A DNA stretch of 35,015 nucleotides from Candidatus Jordarchaeia archaeon. GTDB taxonomy: Archaea; Asgardarchaeota; Jordiarchaeia; Jordiarchaeales; Jordiarchaeaceae. The position numbers and the translations under genes are program-made. Positions 11,796 through 25,913 of the stretch are shown in pieces (the stretch's first letter is position 1; every line of letters starts with the position of its first letter). The DNA lies in NCBI GenBank assembly GCA_018383815.1, contig JAHAWU010000024.1, forward strand, positions 1 to 35,015. The letters are read 5' to 3'. The notes below the pieces were generated by a model. That model made no database searches. It saw only the letters and a program-made list of their open reading frames with translations, and was not told the origin of the DNA.

Positions 11796-12263
11796 TTAAA
11801 AAGACAGCTCTTTATTACCTTTATTTTCCACCACTATTTCCACGTGATGTATAGTATTTTCGAACCATTGATATGCGGCCATCTCTATCCTGTCACTTAA
11901 GGTTCCAAATATGACCCAAACTACGGGATTCAACTCCATAAAAGGTTTATCGGCACTTGAAGGTTTAGCTATTGTAGGGTGGGAGTGAAAAATTCCAACC
12001 ATGTCTTTGCCCTCACTCTCAGCCCTCACCAATATCCTATAAAGCTCCTCAACGTCTATCGCAAAGCTAACTGATGATTCCGCCACATTCTTAGTGAAAA
12101 CCACTTCTTGGGCTTTGGCTGTGTCCCCCTCGAAAAGCCCCAAAATAACTCCACATGCTTCTTTGGGATAGGTTTTACGAGTTTCTTCGAGCATCATTTT
12201 AATATGGTCATTATTGAGGATAATTTTTTGGATCTTGGGAATTGGCAGTAAAACTTCCTCCAA
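11796..12263 (-). CDS. JAB1/MPN-family (JAMM) metalloprotease
   Basis: A 155-residue stand-alone JAMM domain. The zinc-site pattern is intact: E35 in YPKEACGVILG, then H93, H95 and D105 in GIFHSHPTIAKPSSAD with serine before the aspartate. In archaea such proteins remove small ubiquitin-like modifiers (SAMP/Urm1-like) from targets or sulfur carriers; some act on peptides. No ubiquitin-like gene lies nearby, so the substrate is open. The TTG at 12263 has no good Shine-Dalgarno; GGAGG inside codons 2-3 sits eight bases before a CTG (codon 6), so a shorter product is possible. The gene converges with the coiled-coil gene. Confidence 0.85.
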   Translation of the reverse strand: MEEVLLPIPKIQKIILNNDHIKMMLEETRKTYPKEACGVILGLFEGDTAKAQEVVFTKNVAESSVSFAIDVEELYRILVRAESEGKDMVGIFHSHPTIAKPSSADKPFMELNPVVWVIFGTLSDRIEMAAYQWFENTIHHVEIVVENKGNKELSF

Positions 12264-15696: not shown

Positions 15697-16428
15697 TTAA
15701 AGTTTAAGAAGGATATGGTTTACTCTTTCAAGAGCTCTACTTAACACCTGAAATTCGGGATTCAGGTTTACTGCTTCTTCGTATCTTTCTTTAGCCTTGA
15801 TTAATAGTTCTTTAGCTTGTTTCTTCTTACCTTTTTCAAGGTAGTAGATACCCAAGCACTCATAGTAAAGGCCCTCACACTTAGTCTTATCAGCTCTAGC
15901 GAGTTTTTCTTCGTAGGGATTCTTCAGAGCTTCTTCGATTTTTTCTTTATTCTTGAATGCTTCGCAAGCCTCTTGGAAATGATCCGCAGCCTTCTCTAGA
16001 TTTTTATTCTTAATTGCAGTTTGGGCTAGACACTCAAATCTTGCCGCTTCAAGTCCGTGTAGTTCTGCCTCCAGCTCCAAGGGAAGTTTTTGGTCTTTAA
16101 TCCACCCTTCTTTTAGTAAATCCTTTACAATCTTTATAGCAATTTTTTTGTCGGCAACAGCGTTATTGTAGCTATTTGCAGCTGATTCATAATCTTGCAT
16201 CTTAAAGTTTAGATGATCCGCAATAGATTGATGATAATTGGCGCGGGCTTGATAAAAGTTTCCTGCAGAGGTGGTCTGAAGTTGTTCATCTATTTCCTCC
16301 TCCCTTAACTGTTTAAAAAGTTCCGCAGCCTTCTTAAAGTGTTGTGAGGCAACCTTATACTCCTTACTACCGTGAGCCTCCACCCCCGCAACTAGCTCAG
16401 AAACTGCTTCATCAAATTTGTCACTCAT
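15697..16428 (-). CDS. TPR-like helical repeat protein
   Basis: A 243-residue all-helical protein with tetratricopeptide-like repeats. Paired helices such as KVASQHFKKAAELFKQLREE, NYHQSIADHLNFKMQDYESA, NKNLEKAADHFQEACEAFKN and YYLEKGKKKQAKELLIKAKE show the small-residue and aromatic spacing of TPR units. No signal peptide or membrane segment is present, so it is a cytoplasmic scaffold or adaptor; a partner cannot be named. ATG 16428 follows GGATG at seven bases, and a TTG at 16440 would add four residues. It ends 18 bases from the converging CoA-binding gene and lies on the same strand as the HerA-like gene upstream. Confidence 0.75.
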   Translation of the reverse strand: MSDKFDEAVSELVAGVEAHGSKEYKVASQHFKKAAELFKQLREEEIDEQLQTTSAGNFYQARANYHQSIADHLNFKMQDYESAANSYNNAVADKKIAIKIVKDLLKEGWIKDQKLPLELEAELHGLEAARFECLAQTAIKNKNLEKAADHFQEACEAFKNKEKIEEALKNPYEEKLARADKTKCEGLYYECLGIYYLEKGKKKQAKELLIKAKERYEEAVNLNPEFQVLSRALERVNHILLKL

Positions 16429-16773
16429 TGCAGCATCCAACCGCTTATCTTATAGCACACAATGATTAAAATATTTGACGAAAATTTCATCGAAAAAAGA
16501 TGCGCCCCATTCACCCAAAGCATAACGAATTTATACCATACTTTGAGAGCTCTAGTCGCATAATTCTTTAGCATGAAGGATAAAAAATTTCCAAGGATAA
16601 TGAAGCAGATATAGTTACTCCTATATTTGGGCCACATAAAAAGTGTGAAGCGCGTACCTCGTTCCAAAGCCATAAAAGTAACCCTTTTTTGAGAAGCGAA
16701 AAAAGGGTCTATAAGGTGCATTTTTGTTATTTTTGCAAAATTTATGCTTGAATTATGAATCTTTTCTTTTGGG
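16429..16773 (-). other. gene-free gap with a strong hairpin
   Basis: The gap between the HerA-like gene and the TPR gene holds the hairpin at 16681-16708 and, near 16465-16476, an A/T-rich element that could be the TPR promoter. A 98-codon minus-strand frame (16425-16721) runs through the hairpin; its composition and position speak against a gene. Confidence 0.4.
16681..16708 (-). terminator. perfect 10-bp inverted repeat, likely terminator of the HerA-like gene
   Basis: ACCCTTTTTT, an eight-base loop and AAAAAAGGGT form a perfect ten-pair stem, 65 bases beyond the stop of the HerA-like gene. The stem is A/T-heavy. On RNA it would present either an A- or a U-run, so it could serve either strand. 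Confidence 0.45.
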
Positions 16774-19700
16774 TTAAGTTTCGGTTCGAAGCCAAGATAT
16801 TAACTCTTGTAAATCCTTTTCTGAGCTGTAGGGCAGGTTGGATGTTTTTTCTGTAGAGGGATCAACTATTTCTGTGAGAAACGTGTTAAGATTGGTTAGG
16901 CTGCCCATAAGTATGGGTATTTTCCATTGGCTGTTCAGCTTCTCGGCCTTTTTAAGATCTTTTTCGTGGAGGAATAAAACTGCAACTCTGTTAAACTTCA
17001 AAAATAATTTTTGAAATGTGCTTTTAAGCTCACCATCGTTAGGTATTTGAACAAACAGTTTCAAATTGTAGGATTCAATTTTACCATCTGCTCCAGTTTC
17101 GGGGTCTCTTTTTAGCAAGAAATTGACGCCATTTTTGAAGCATACTTCCTCTAAGACATCCTTCAGGTACTTGTCTTGTACATTTTCGTATTTGGGCCCA
17201 AATTTGGAGTAGTACAGGGGAATATTGGTTTTACTTCCAACTACGGGAACGTATATTCTTTGAATCCCCGAATCCGTATTTAGGACTTCAAGCATAATTT
17301 TGTTTACCGCTTTTGGGGGGATTCCTGTTATTTTTGATATAAAAAGATCTGTTAGGTATATTTCACTGTCAAGGATGGCTAAAACCTGATTCACGAGGAC
17401 TGCGACTTGCTCACCACTTAAATTATATGGAGGTTCGAATGAAATTTTCGAGTTACTGACCCCCCTAAGAAATTGATCGGCAGTAACGAAGGTATTCTTT
17501 ATAGGTTGTAGCTGATGTTTCAATTCAAATTCACCGCTGGTTTCTCCCATTTCTAAAGTAGCCGGTGCTTTGAAACTATTATCGATATGTTCAACTTTGG
17601 GCGCAGGACTTGCTTCTTTATTAACTAGGATTTTATCCCAATCGGGTTCAAATTTTATTTTGTTTCCCGTTCCCGGCATTATTATTAAAGCCTTCCCGCC
17701 AAGATTCTCTATTTCTCCCGGATTTATCCCTCCAATTATTTCATCGCACCTTCCGGGTTCTCTTAGACCATCAAAAATAATTGCATAACATGAATCCAAA
17801 CCATAGATGCTTTTAAAGTCTTGGGGATGGGGGACAGATAGAATTAGACCCTCACCGTTTTTTAGCAAAGTGGATTTATCTAAAACTGTCTTAGTTAAAA
17901 AATTAATCAGTTCTGAGCCGTTTTCGGGGCAGTTTATTACCGTTACGTGTTTTAAGCCATTTACTTCCTCAGACGAAACACGAGATAATAGTGCTAGAAT
18001 ATAGGTTGTGAGAAATTTTATGCCAATAATATCTGTTTCAGAGTATGGATGATTTAAATCAATGATTACACGCTTATCAGCTATTTCTGGACCTATGTTA
18101 GAGTGGCTGCTGCTGAAAACACTACTTAGGGCACCTTGCTGAAGATTGTGTAGCAGGAGCGCAAGTTCTCTTATGATGGTCTCCTTTTTAGAATCATTAC
18201 TTTTCAATAGTTCATTAAAGGCGTTGTCAAACTCTCTGAGACCGTGTTCACATCTCAGAGTATTACTGAAGTGGCTTAGAATTCTGTGAAGTGGCTCCTG
18301 CAGGTTTTCCAATTTGTTTTCAAAAAATTTTTTGAAAATACTAATTAGGAATGAGGCGTGTTCCTCTGGCGATTTTTCTTTAGGATCAAAGAGGTTTATT
18401 TTAAGTTGCTCAGACCCAGAATTGAGGCTGAAAAATGAAATTGAATCGTTACACAGACCCTTCAACTTCGAGAAATCGCCCTTAAAATCGAAAACTATCC
18501 AAGGCTTCTTAATTTTTTCAAGGATGCTCATTATAAAACAAGCTTTTTCGTAGGATTCGCCAAAAATGACCACGTAGTGTAACAAATTTTCATAATACAT
18601 CCAAACGGATACTGTGCGTCCACCCAAAGCAGTTTTGCCCAATAGGACTCTATCAATGTTAGAAATATTGCTCTTCGGATTTTCATTGGCGTGCCCAATT
18701 GGAAAGTTTAACTTTTTCTCGTTAGTTGGAGTGGGAGCTTTCAAATAAATACTTAAATTTTTTATGAAAAAAACATCTTTATCGGGAAGGAGTCGCCTAC
18801 AAATTATGTTGTGTAAGAATTTTTTAATTCCGCTACAGTCCAAGAACTCTACATTAATTCTTTCCCTAACTCCAGACCAAGCAGCACTGGCGGCGGCATA
18901 CACTCTCTCCATGTGATTTTTAATGCTTTCTAAAGAGGCGCCCCTCACAACCAGGTAGGGAGAGGCTTCACAATATTTGATTGGAGTTTTACTTTTAACT
19001 CGAACACGTGTTTCTAAGTTCTTATAAGTCCGTTCAGATTCCCTTCTTTTTAAAAATCGGAAGGGAATCACGAGGGTTAAATTTGCATCCAAGCTTTCAA
19101 TGGAGTTCAAGAAAAGATCTAGACAGTGCGGGTCTAGCGATTCACAATTTGGGGCCCCCTTCAAAATAAGCACAGCAATGTAAGTTGGGCTTTCATTCGC
19201 GTCGAGAATTAAAATATTTTTTTCACCCTTAACCTTTCGAATCGCAGTGAAGTAAGCTCCTCCTATCAAACTCAAAAACTCTTCTTCCAATATCTCGAAA
19301 CGCATTCTAGTATAATCGGCGCCTAGGTTAAAGGTTGACAGAACAGATTGAACTTTTTCGTCTAAATCTTCTTCAATGATTGGTTGCTTTGAAAAAATGT
19401 AAAGGCAAGGAGAGATTGTTTCCCCCCTAACATTTATCTCGTACGCGTACTCCAGTTGCTCATCTAATTCTACATCTGGAGCCAAAAAATTTTGGCAAAA
19501 GGGAGAGTTAAATCCATCCTTTTCAGAAGGGGGAAGTAATTGGAAAACACTCTCCTCTGATAAGACATTTTTCCCCCTAAGTAATCTAATTTTATCCTGC
19601 GTTAGGAGATAACGAGAAAAAGGCACCTTTTTTCCGTCAAAAAACACTGCACCAAAAAATATGAGAAAAAACAGGACAAATGATTCTAAGTGAATGAAGT

Positions 19701-19851
19701 GAGAAAGATTCACAAAACTGTTGCTCAAGGTCAGCTGACCAACCTTAAATAAGATAAACTTAATTTCTAATAGAAGGATGAGGCACAGAAAAGGATGCAA
19801 ATTACCACAAGACATCTTTCCCAAACTATTCTGCATATTTTCATCATCCAC
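16774..19851 (-). CDS. membrane-anchored HerA/TraG/VirB4-like protein with eroded ATPase motifs
   Basis: A 1025-residue protein. Two hydrophobic segments (about 18-45 and 56-72) anchor the N-terminus. A P-loop domain of the HerA/TraG/VirB4 type spans about 400-735: VLLGKTALGGRTVSVWM leads into the Walker A position, where FGESYEKACF (430-439) replaces GxTGxGKS; PWIVFDFKGDF follows as the usual 'DpKGE' strand. RVIIDLNHPYSE (594-605) precedes the Walker B position, where VINCPENGS (638-646) lacks the Asp/Glu pair, and GLILSVPHPQDF (668-679) has lost the sensor Gln. The C-terminal part holds a winged-helix-like stretch (about 810-870) and an alpha/beta domain. So the fold is kept but ATP hydrolysis is not expected. 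The start is GTG 19851 or ATG 19836. No close neighbour explains its job. Confidence 0.65.
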   Translation of the reverse strand: MDDENMQNSLGKMSCGNLHPFLCLILLLEIKFILFKVGQLTLSNSFVNLSHFIHLESFVLFFLIFFGAVFFDGKKVPFSRYLLTQDKIRLLRGKNVLSEESVFQLLPPSEKDGFNSPFCQNFLAPDVELDEQLEYAYEINVRGETISPCLYIFSKQPIIEEDLDEKVQSVLSTFNLGADYTRMRFEILEEEFLSLIGGAYFTAIRKVKGEKNILILDANESPTYIAVLILKGAPNCESLDPHCLDLFLNSIESLDANLTLVIPFRFLKRRESERTYKNLETRVRVKSKTPIKYCEASPYLVVRGASLESIKNHMERVYAAASAAWSGVRERINVEFLDCSGIKKFLHNIICRRLLPDKDVFFIKNLSIYLKAPTPTNEKKLNFPIGHANENPKSNISNIDRVLLGKTALGGRTVSVWMYYENLLHYVVIFGESYEKACFIMSILEKIKKPWIVFDFKGDFSKLKGLCNDSISFFSLNSGSEQLKINLFDPKEKSPEEHASFLISIFKKFFENKLENLQEPLHRILSHFSNTLRCEHGLREFDNAFNELLKSNDSKKETIIRELALLLHNLQQGALSSVFSSSHSNIGPEIADKRVIIDLNHPYSETDIIGIKFLTTYILALLSRVSSEEVNGLKHVTVINCPENGSELINFLTKTVLDKSTLLKNGEGLILSVPHPQDFKSIYGLDSCYAIIFDGLREPGRCDEIIGGINPGEIENLGGKALIIMPGTGNKIKFEPDWDKILVNKEASPAPKVEHIDNSFKAPATLEMGETSGEFELKHQLQPIKNTFVTADQFLRGVSNSKISFEPPYNLSGEQVAVLVNQVLAILDSEIYLTDLFISKITGIPPKAVNKIMLEVLNTDSGIQRIYVPVVGSKTNIPLYYSKFGPKYENVQDKYLKDVLEEVCFKNGVNFLLKRDPETGADGKIESYNLKLFVQIPNDGELKSTFQKLFLKFNRVAVLFLHEKDLKKAEKLNSQWKIPILMGSLTNLNTFLTEIVDPSTEKTSNLPYSSEKDLQELISWLRTET

Positions 19852-22004: not shown

Positions 22005-23495
22005 TTACGCTCTAGATTCAAGGAGATTATTTATCATTTGCTCTATATTTTCATCTAAAGCTTTTTCCAGCTTGGACGCGGTTCTCTTTTTAACCTTCCT
22101 GATTCCGGGAATATACTTGTTTTTGAAAAGTGAGAGGGATTTGTCTAAATCAACTCTAATCCAATTTTCCTCCACTCGGACTACTCCCTCTTTCTCTAAT
22201 TCCTTAAACGGTTCCACATCGAAAGACCCATCGATGGGAAGGAAGTAGTAGTCATAAATCAGCTTGTATAAAGCCTTCCTATCAAATCCTGGCTTTTCGG
22301 GCACCACTACCATTTCAAGAACCTGAGAAACCATTTCAATAAATAACTTCATCCTCTTGTAAATCTCCTTAACTTCCTTAGAGGTATAAGTCACCTCCTC
22401 AGGCGGTGCTACCTCTACAGTTTTAATCACAGGCGTCTCAACAGCGACCTCCTTAGCAACCGGACTTTCGATATGCTCAGCGACCACCCGCTCCTCAACC
22501 ACAGGTTCAGCGACCACCCGCTCCTCAACCACAGGTTCAGCGACCACCCGCTCCTCAACCACTGGTTTCACAACTACAGGCTCTTTAACTACAGGCTCCT
22601 CAACTACGGGCTCCTCGATAGTGGTTTTTATCACCTCTGGACCCTCAACCTTAAGCTCTTGAACCTGTTTTATGGAGATGGCTTCTTCAACTACAGGTTT
22701 CTCAATACCTTTTATCTCAGGTGGTTTCATGGTTACTTCTGCTGTCGGTGTAACTTTGATTTTTGTTATCTCTGTGGCTGCTTCTGCTTTTGCTAGTTCT
22801 GTTGGAGTCGGTATCACGCTTACTGCTTCTCTTAGGAAGTACTCATCTTGTATTTTGCCGACTAAAATTCCTTGGTCTAACAGGTAGCTTAATCTCTTCT
22901 TGACTTCATTTTCAGGTATGCCTAAAACTGAGGCTATCTGTACAAGGCTGAGTTTGTCATACTCTTTTATGTAGGTGGTGAGAGCTTTATCTACAGGTTC
23001 TAATCCCGCCTTTTCCCCCACTATTACGGGTTCTTGAATTGTTTCTTCCTTTTCGATTTCCTCATATTCTGGTAACTTTGTTTTAGCGGCCTTTGCAACC
23101 TCGGTAGTTTCGCCGGTAAGAGTATTAATTTTGAGATTAATTTGATTAACATTTTTTCTTAATTCATCAGCCCTATCTTTATCGAAATGTTCGATTTCTT
23201 TGAGAAACATGTTTATTAGCATTAATAAGCGGTTCATGTTGAGGCGGTACTCGCCTCGCATGTACAAAATACCAGCGCTGTTCTCCAATTCTTCTAGAAA
23301 TTGCTTGTCTAAGCCACCAACATTTATTTTTTGGCGATCGCGAATATCCCTGAAAAATTCCTGCCTGTTCAAACCGCCATCTTTGTAGCTATTTACCACT
23401 TCAAGAACTAATTTAATGAGTTTATCACAATTTGAAGCTAAAAGTCTGAATCTTTGCCTGCTTCGAGTAAGATGAGGCTCTTCAATAAATGACAC
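22005..23495 (-). CDS. winged-helix protein with PVVEE-type repeats and duplicated end domains
   Basis: A 496-residue modular protein (501 from the longer start). In the longer numbering, residues 16-107 form an alpha-helical domain; 173-227 form a winged helix (DKLSLVQIASVLGIPENEVK, then RLSYLLDQGILVGKI); 260-370 are an extended, Pro/Val/Glu-rich linker built from PVVEEP and PVVEERVVAE units; 384-471 form a C-terminal domain that looks like the N-terminal one. Both ends share the pattern 'helix, R..F/LY..I.D, G..D...ELE..G.., yR/IRvd.d..l'. No enzyme motif is seen; a scaffold or DNA-linked architectural role is an inference. I choose GTG 23495, with GGAG nine bases upstream, over GTG 23510. 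Confidence 0.75.
   Translation of the reverse strand: MSFIEEPHLTRSRQRFRLLASNCDKLIKLVLEVVNSYKDGGLNRQEFFRDIRDRQKINVGGLDKQFLEELENSAGILYMRGEYRLNMNRLLMLINMFLKEIEHFDKDRADELRKNVNQINLKINTLTGETTEVAKAAKTKLPEYEEIEKEETIQEPVIVGEKAGLEPVDKALTTYIKEYDKLSLVQIASVLGIPENEVKKRLSYLLDQGILVGKIQDEYFLREAVSVIPTPTELAKAEAATEITKIKVTPTAEVTMKPPEIKGIEKPVVEEAISIKQVQELKVEGPEVIKTTIEEPVVEEPVVKEPVVVKPVVEERVVAEPVVEERVVAEPVVEERVVAEHIESPVAKEVAVETPVIKTVEVAPPEEVTYTSKEVKEIYKRMKLFIEMVSQVLEMVVVPEKPGFDRKALYKLIYDYYFLPIDGSFDVEPFKELEKEGVVRVEENWIRVDLDKSLSLFKNKYIPGIRKVKKRTASKLEKALDENIEQMINNLLESRA
22477..22566. repeat. three tandem 30-bp coding repeats
   Basis: Three consecutive 30-base units (22477-22506, 22507-22536, 22537-22566) differ by a single base in the third copy. 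Each encodes ten residues of the PVVEERVVAE type in the linker of the winged-helix protein. Near-identity points to recent expansion by slippage or unequal crossing over. Shorter, more diverged PVVEEP-like units continue to about 22620. Confidence 0.9.
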
Positions 23496-23952
23496 AAAGG
23501 TCAGCTCCACTACTCACTTTAATAAATTAATGGCAATCCGTGAATAATAAAACTTTTCTTCAGAAAACAGCGACTTAACTCAGGTTACAAAAATTAGTCC
23601 GCAATTCCAATTTTAATATAAAAAACCATTTGGAAATTTTCTGAATCTTATTCAATAATTCTAACTTGACAGAGTTAAATTTGAGTTTATTGCTCCTAGA
23701 TTCAACACTCTTCTACGTATTCCTTTCTTCTGACGTAATTGGCAACCTTCTAGGGGGTATTTTCCACAGTATAGATTTTAGATGAAGCTCTGGATGTGTA
23801 ACTAAAAACAATCAGAAGGGAAAAAATGCAGAAAATTTGGGGAAGCAGAGTGGGATTGCTTCTCTACTTTTTGGTTTTGAAAGAGGATTTCTGTACTATT
23901 TTAGTAATGCTTGGAAATCGGCCTGATTTAACATTGTTTAGCTAGAGATTTT
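23496..23952. other. gene-free gap with a weak small frame and a hairpin
   Basis: The gap between the PVVEE-repeat gene and the M24 gene is A/T-rich. It holds a hairpin at 23842-23862 and a 39-codon plus-strand frame (23826-23945) preceded by AGAAGGG six bases before its ATG. The hairpin lies inside that frame. I see no other structure. Confidence 0.35.
23842..23862 (-). terminator. hairpin downstream of the M24 gene
   Basis: GAAGCA, a nine-base loop and TGCTTC form a six-pair stem about 90 bases beyond the M24 stop; on the minus strand T-rich sequence follows it. A modest terminator candidate. Confidence 0.3.
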
Positions 23953-25160: not shown

Positions 25161-25307
25161 AAAAGTTAATCTCAGTTTCGGTAATCACAATTCCCCATAA
25201 AATTAAGCTTCTTTTAAAAAAGGAGTCATCCAGCTAAATAGGGGTAATTTAATATAATAAGAATTTAATATTATAAGTTGTACAAATTATTGCAGAAGGC
25301 TTTTCTC

Positions 25308-25913
25308 TTGGCAAAAATTTACTTAATTAAGGAAGGCGACTATGAGGAAATAATGCAACCTGTTTTTTCAACTGGAGACACCTATGTTGTTGACGCTGGA
25401 GACCGAATATGGATATGGCTGGGTGAAAAAACAACAGTTGATGAAAAATTCGCTGGCGCCTTCATAAGCAACCTCATGGATAAGCAACGCAAAGGTAAAC
25501 CCCGCGTAGAAACGGTCCACCAAGGTAATGAACCACTAGAATTTAGGAAAACAGTAGGTCCAATGCGCATAGTGGATCAAGACCTCGCTAAATCTATGCT
25601 CAAAAAAACAGAGAAAAAAACACACCCCGTTGTTATGTACAGAATATCAGGGGAAGAGTTCGAAACCCTTGATGATGTACAATTCGTTCAAGTGCCACTA
25701 TCCAAAGCATCTCTAGACTCAGAGGATGTTTTCTTGATAGACACCTACGATACAATTTATATCTGGCAAGGTAAAAAAAGTAGCGTTCGAGAAAAAGTTG
25801 TAGGCGGTAGGATAGCCAGAAAATTCGACGCAGAGCGTGTAGGAGTACAAAAAGAAGTCTTTGTTGAAGAGGGCGAGGAGCCAGACAAGCTAAAAAAGAT
25901 CCTAGGTCTCTAG
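25308..25913 (+). CDS. two-domain gelsolin-like protein
   Basis: A 201-residue protein of two gelsolin-like repeats. In each, the hallmark strand-helix is visible: VFSTGDTYVVDAGDRIWIWL with GEKTTVDEKFAGAFIS (repeat 1), and DSEDVFLIDTYDTIYIWQG with KKSSVREKVVGGRIARKF (repeat 2). The aspartates after the 'VD/ID' strands are the kind that bind calcium in the family. In eukaryotes and in Asgard archaea, two-domain gelsolins sever, cap or bundle actin filaments. No actin gene is in the window. The start is taken as TTG 25308, with AGAAGG eight bases upstream; a TTG at 25278 would add ten residues. A TATA-like TTTAATATAAT lies near 25249-25259. Confidence 0.85.
   Translation: MAKIYLIKEGDYEEIMQPVFSTGDTYVVDAGDRIWIWLGEKTTVDEKFAGAFISNLMDKQRKGKPRVETVHQGNEPLEFRKTVGPMRIVDQDLAKSMLKKTEKKTHPVVMYRISGEEFETLDDVQFVQVPLSKASLDSEDVFLIDTYDTIYIWQGKKSSVREKVVGGRIARKFDAERVGVQKEVFVEEGEEPDKLKKILGL

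Follow-up and report, generated by a model that had tools for sequence, protein, structure and literature searches.

VirB4-family ATPases are the best structural match of the protein considered here. The outer VirB4 of plasmid R388 seems to be structural, and, according to a review, the reason for the six extra, seemingly structural copies in VirB4 machines is unclear (PMC12857230). A duplicate of VirB4 whose NTP-binding cleft is altered by seven substitutions (VirB4b, or RvhB4-II) has been described in Rickettsia, where it is kept beside the active copy and away from the other vir genes (PMC2653234); thus, an ATPase-impaired VirB4 duplicate is already known as a kind. The archaeal CedB and TedB are also VirB4 family ATPases (PMC9905601). 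HerA, the archaeal DNA translocase that partners with NurA, belongs to the same superfamily.

The window, that is, the whole stretch of 35,015 nucleotides analysed here, comes from a Jordarchaeales (Asgard) MAG. Its minus strand contains an ORF of 1025 aa (16774..19851), hereafter the pseudo-ATPase, whose frame has no internal stop, as the initial annotation had it. The translation probably starts at the ATG at 19815 (M13, 1013 aa) rather than at the GTG at 19851, since M13 is invariant in the pseudo-ATPase sequences (n = 5). Two N-terminal hydrophobic segments were found by the Kyte–Doolittle method, at residues 20–38 (19738..19794) and 52–70 (19642..19698), both encoded on the minus strand, as are the domains below. 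The window protein thus has two segments where the initial annotation placed membrane segments, but orthologues from the order's other, sister family (f2, the window protein's own family being f1) have a single such segment each. The protein would be located in the cytoplasmic membrane. Residues 133–395 (18667..19455) form an N-terminal domain that is homologous to that of an active paralogue and lies inside the stretch matched by VirB4; residues 396–736 (17644..18666) form an ATPase-like domain of the FtsK/HerA/VirB4 RecA type, assigned from a weak DUF87 match, the hhalign comparison, and the structural model.

The active paralogue, L002 (990 aa), is encoded by the same genome, has intact motifs, and is matched by the pseudo-ATPase with an E-value of 1.7e-14; the two proteins are alike in the N-terminal membrane segment, the N-terminal domain, and the RecA-like domain. 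A profile–profile comparison of the pseudo-ATPase with the active Jordarchaeales family gave an E-value of 5.7e-25 over 580 columns (residues 133–732), so their likeness is not due to chance. The Pfam DUF87 profile matches the window protein with an E-value of 0.0013 and 19.3 bits, under the gathering cut-off of 23.2, and the orthologue from genome G002 narrowly clears it (24.1 bits). Sequence searches of the PDB returned only weak HTH and designed-Rossmann matches for the pseudo-ATPase and no match for the active paralogue.

The full-length AlphaFold model of the pseudo-ATPase is of low confidence (pLDDT 60, pTM 0.39). In a Foldseek search, its top match was TrwK/VirB4 of plasmid R388 (E-value 4.8e-16, 755 columns), with a TM-score of 0.31 and low pLDDT in much of the modelled N-terminal domain; HerA (1.5e-10) and then DndH, VirB4, and TrwB ranked lower. 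The alignment behind the model contained active paralogues and can lend their fold, so this evidence is not independent of them. With overall model confidence low, the results point to a RecA-like core common to the pseudo-ATPase and the FtsK/HerA/VirB4 superfamily; this agrees with the P-loop fold proposed in the initial annotation, and no other fold was predicted. Its assignment as HerA/TraG-like holds at the level of the superfamily, while the nearest structural match is VirB4, neither HerA nor TraG. The match to VirB4 extends over the N-terminal and RecA-like domains, and the predicted membrane association is also VirB4-like. Its likeness to HerA lies in the RecA-like core and the weak DUF87 match; unlike HerA, it is predicted to be membrane-anchored and catalytically dead, and it is structurally closer to VirB4.

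The motifs of the active paralogue are complete (GTVGSGKT Walker A, VVVDD Walker B, ERGKG, and the sensor Gln). In the pseudo-ATPase of the window, the GxxxxGK[ST] pattern is absent throughout, and Walker A (GxxGxGK[ST]) is missing in all seven complete orthologues. At the P-loop, VVIFGE-SYEKACF is aligned with LAVLGTVGSGKTYF of the paralogue, and the core GTVGSGKT is changed to GE-SYEKA (residues 431–438, GESYEKAC; 18538..18561). The glycines are gone and the loop is one residue short, as expected from the earlier reading of GESYEKACF as an eroded P-loop; that reading needs a correction in that the Lys (K436) is retained in the five f1 sequences. At the Walker B position, the pseudo-ATPase has TVINCPEN, whereas the paralogue has VVVDDAR, and about eight residues are inserted after it (residues 637–653, TVINCPENGSELINFLT; 17893..17943); the replacement of the acids, noted earlier in VINCPENGS, is evident from this alignment. 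In the adjacent Arg-finger/sensor region (residues 654–679; 17815..17892), about 13 residues are deleted. The deleted segment, TT..EDMIT.ERGKGQG, is probably the Arg-finger region, and ERGKG is lost with it. The sensor reads GLILSVPHPQDF versus GLILICQDPA in the paralogue, and the Gln is gone from its place, again as annotated. Because of the deletion and the insertion, the order of landmarks is not fully intact, contrary to the first description. Six other full-length DUF87 proteins of the same genome retain the P-loop. By description, the pseudo-ATPase resembles the Rickettsia VirB4b, an altered duplicate retained with an active copy; however, the latter is bacterial, belongs to an identified T4SS, and differs by substitutions, whereas the pseudo-ATPase also has a deletion and an insertion.

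Orthologues with the catalytic loss were found in f1 (L003/L030, L004, L005, and L031) and in f2 (L049 and L050). L003/L030 (87% identity) is one locus from two collections. In genome G007, the gene is split across two contigs and groups with the f2 copies. Altogether, the pseudo-ATPase is present in 7 of the 8 genomes of the order and the active relative in all 8; the only genome without the former, G005, is 83% complete. Every orthologue found shares the loss and none has intact motifs, so the clade-wide loss that the initial annotation envisaged is borne out. In other Asgard families, no pseudo-ATPase was found except L031 (JAUQYY010000424.1), a contig filed under a Sigynarchaeota MAG that carries a Jordarchaeales locus in complete order. 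A Sigynarchaeota origin is improbable: this contig is probably mis-binned, because its gene order is Jordarchaeales-like, identity reaches 90%, and the matching bin is about 9% contaminated.

On the phylogenetic tree, the pseudo-ATPases and the active proteins each form a single clade with 100/100 support. Since each clade holds both families, the tree indicates that the duplication predates the split of f1 and f2. The catalytic losses are most simply explained by one event that also preceded this split; a second, independent loss would be a less simple, though possible, explanation. The tree has long branches and gives no clear deeper sister group for the pseudo-ATPase clade.

Residues 811–885 (17197..17421) were modelled as a winged helix with pLDDT of 74–88. 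Foldseek revealed similarity of this domain to winged helices of the MarR, TFE, and AbfR2 types (best E-value 0.004), and the region has a weak sequence match to the Lrp-type HTH (E-value 0.016). The C-terminal region of the active paralogue aligns weakly to this winged helix. In the C-terminal alpha/beta domain (residues 886–1000; 16852..17196), D916, D922, G923, I925, and K931 are invariant across f1 and f2. The order of its elements resembles the PD-(D/E)XK core; the putative D...[D/E]xK motif is incomplete, as D922 and K931 are invariant but no sequence has an acidic residue two positions ahead of the Lys. Foldseek found no confident structure for this domain, with a weak match to SfsA (E-value 0.074), and a search of 228 genomes of the phylum revealed nothing convincing outside the pseudo-ATPase family. 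Both C-terminal domains claimed initially are present in the model, and Foldseek supports the winged helix. The pseudo-ATPase differs from VirB4 in this tail and in the absence of catalytic motifs.

The divergent neighbour of the pseudo-ATPase gene encodes NPN-dependent ornithine cyclodeaminase (TIGR00300; 20284..21507, plus strand) and is a syntenic marker in both families; homologues of glpK, glpA, glpB, and glpC are located beyond it in f1 and f2. In every f1 locus, the gene that follows on the same strand encodes a TPR protein (15697..16440, minus strand), for which no match was found in the f2 genomes. In f2, topA (DNA topoisomerase I) is directly downstream of the pseudo-ATPase gene and codirectional with it in all three loci (L049:6720-11263, L050:1826-6352, and L053:15-2594). 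The 98-aa ORF between the pseudo-ATPase and TPR genes of the window (16425-16721, minus strand) is unmatched in the loci of relatives and in Pfam and is probably not a gene. The annotated neighbours are metabolic or housekeeping genes, and the active paralogue is encoded at a separate, unlinked locus beside PGK (in both families) and other housekeeping genes.

Among the annotated neighbours of the pseudo-ATPase gene, there is none for a VirB6/CedA-like channel, pilin, or coupling protein. A search for the type IV coupling-protein family PF02534 found nothing above the cut-off in the eight genomes, so no secretion system that the pseudo-ATPase could serve was identified. In this it also differs from VirB4, as no T4SS, Ced, or Ted genes were recognised near it. 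The possibility that it belongs with a DNA importer of the Ced/Ted kind was considered and set aside, as nothing in the neighbourhood supports it; membership in a defence system was rejected too, the window protein having no PADLOC match. Three other genes of the window can be mentioned. The product of 22005-23510 (minus strand) contains a PCI/winged-helix-like segment, is rich in proline in its middle part, is syntenic in f1, and has a dN/dS of 0.165. A JAB/MPN-domain protein (11796-12263, minus strand; Prok-JAB, E-value 3.7e-15) is ubiquitin-protease-like and of interest in Asgard archaea. A gelsolin protein with two repeats (25278-25913, plus strand) is kept in relatives and represents a eukaryote-like signature gene.

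For the closest pair of pseudo-ATPases, dN/dS is 0.27 overall, with 0.23 in the N-terminal domain, 0.29 in the ATPase-like domain, and 0.21 in the tail; in comparison, it is 0.05–0.17 for the neighbour genes and 0.16 for the active paralogue. The pseudo-ATPase is constrained, but more loosely than the neighbour genes. This value and the uninterrupted frames agree with the initial view of a maintained pseudo-ATPase rather than a decaying gene. The segment replacing Walker B ranks among the most conserved of the ATPase-like domain, while the five loop positions around K436 have a mean pairwise identity of 0.16, below any five-residue window of the domain, a comparison that is descriptive as the positions were chosen by eye. 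Such a combination is more in keeping with a new surface than with decay.

We propose that a membrane-anchored ATPase of the VirB4/HerA type was duplicated long ago and that the duplicate lost its catalytic site and was then kept. Its dead RecA-like domain would be a structural subunit that self-assembles or associates with the active VirB4-like paralogue, after the model of the outer VirB4 ring of R388, and the winged helix and alpha/beta tail would serve the active motor, or related machinery, by holding DNA at the membrane. This reading of the pseudo-ATPase as a structural, membrane-anchored, DNA-binding subunit is the one we lean towards, tentatively; the conserved Walker B replacement, as a new surface, argues for it. 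The active paralogue may be the partner. Against the proposal stand the unlinked position of that paralogue's gene, the failure of the coupling-protein search to point to a secretion system, the weakness of the full-length model, and the alpha/beta domain with no confident match.

The main rival explanation, which we consider possible but somewhat doubtful, is that the pseudo-ATPase is a stand-alone membrane-tethered DNA-binding protein, either a regulator or a chromosome anchor. The winged helix would then bind DNA, perhaps at the divergent ornithine cyclodeaminase and glycerol genes, and the dead ATPase-like domain would be a mere scaffold or sensor. Within f1, the tail is the best conserved region (0.69 versus 0.57 in the ATPase-like domain), and between the families conservation is highest in the alpha/beta domain. 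The f2 copies have lost more of the ATPase-like domain yet retain the tail. The winged-helix matches point in the same direction, as does the divergent neighbourhood kept across two families, although the latter may reflect only slow change of gene order. However, the ATPase-like domain, with its dN/dS of 0.29 and highly conserved stretches, exceeds what a mere linker needs.

It is improbable that the pseudo-ATPase still binds nucleotide, or performs an unusual hydrolysis, through Lys436 and other residues. All five f1 sequences have this Lys; however, it is missing in f2, the loop around it is short and highly variable, and the residue that follows is A, T, T, T, or I, so that the Thr/Ser is not kept. 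The Walker B acids and the Arg-finger region are gone as well. That the gene is a pseudogene in decay, or an artefact of assembly, is hardly credible: dN/dS is higher than in the neighbours and the active paralogue but far under 1 in each domain, and the frame is open in five f1 and two complete f2 loci with the same catalytic losses across independent assemblies. A frameshift, an assembly error, and recent decay were rejected on these grounds.

Returning to the proposed structural subunit, what appears to be new is an archaeal, order-wide, chromosomal version of an impaired VirB4 duplicate, unlinked to secretion genes and provided with a DNA-binding-like tail. A further-reaching claim, which we regard as rather unlikely, is that the VirB4-type motor has been split in Jordarchaeales into an active gene and a permanently dead structural gene with a DNA-binding tail. 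If this were true, the motor role and the structural role, both of which fall to identical subunits in the bacterial T4SS, would be separately encoded in Jordarchaeales, and a dead copy with its own gene would let the two roles of VirB4 be tested apart. An ancient, order-specific pseudo-ATPase is also added to the membrane DNA machinery of Asgard archaea, about which little is known.
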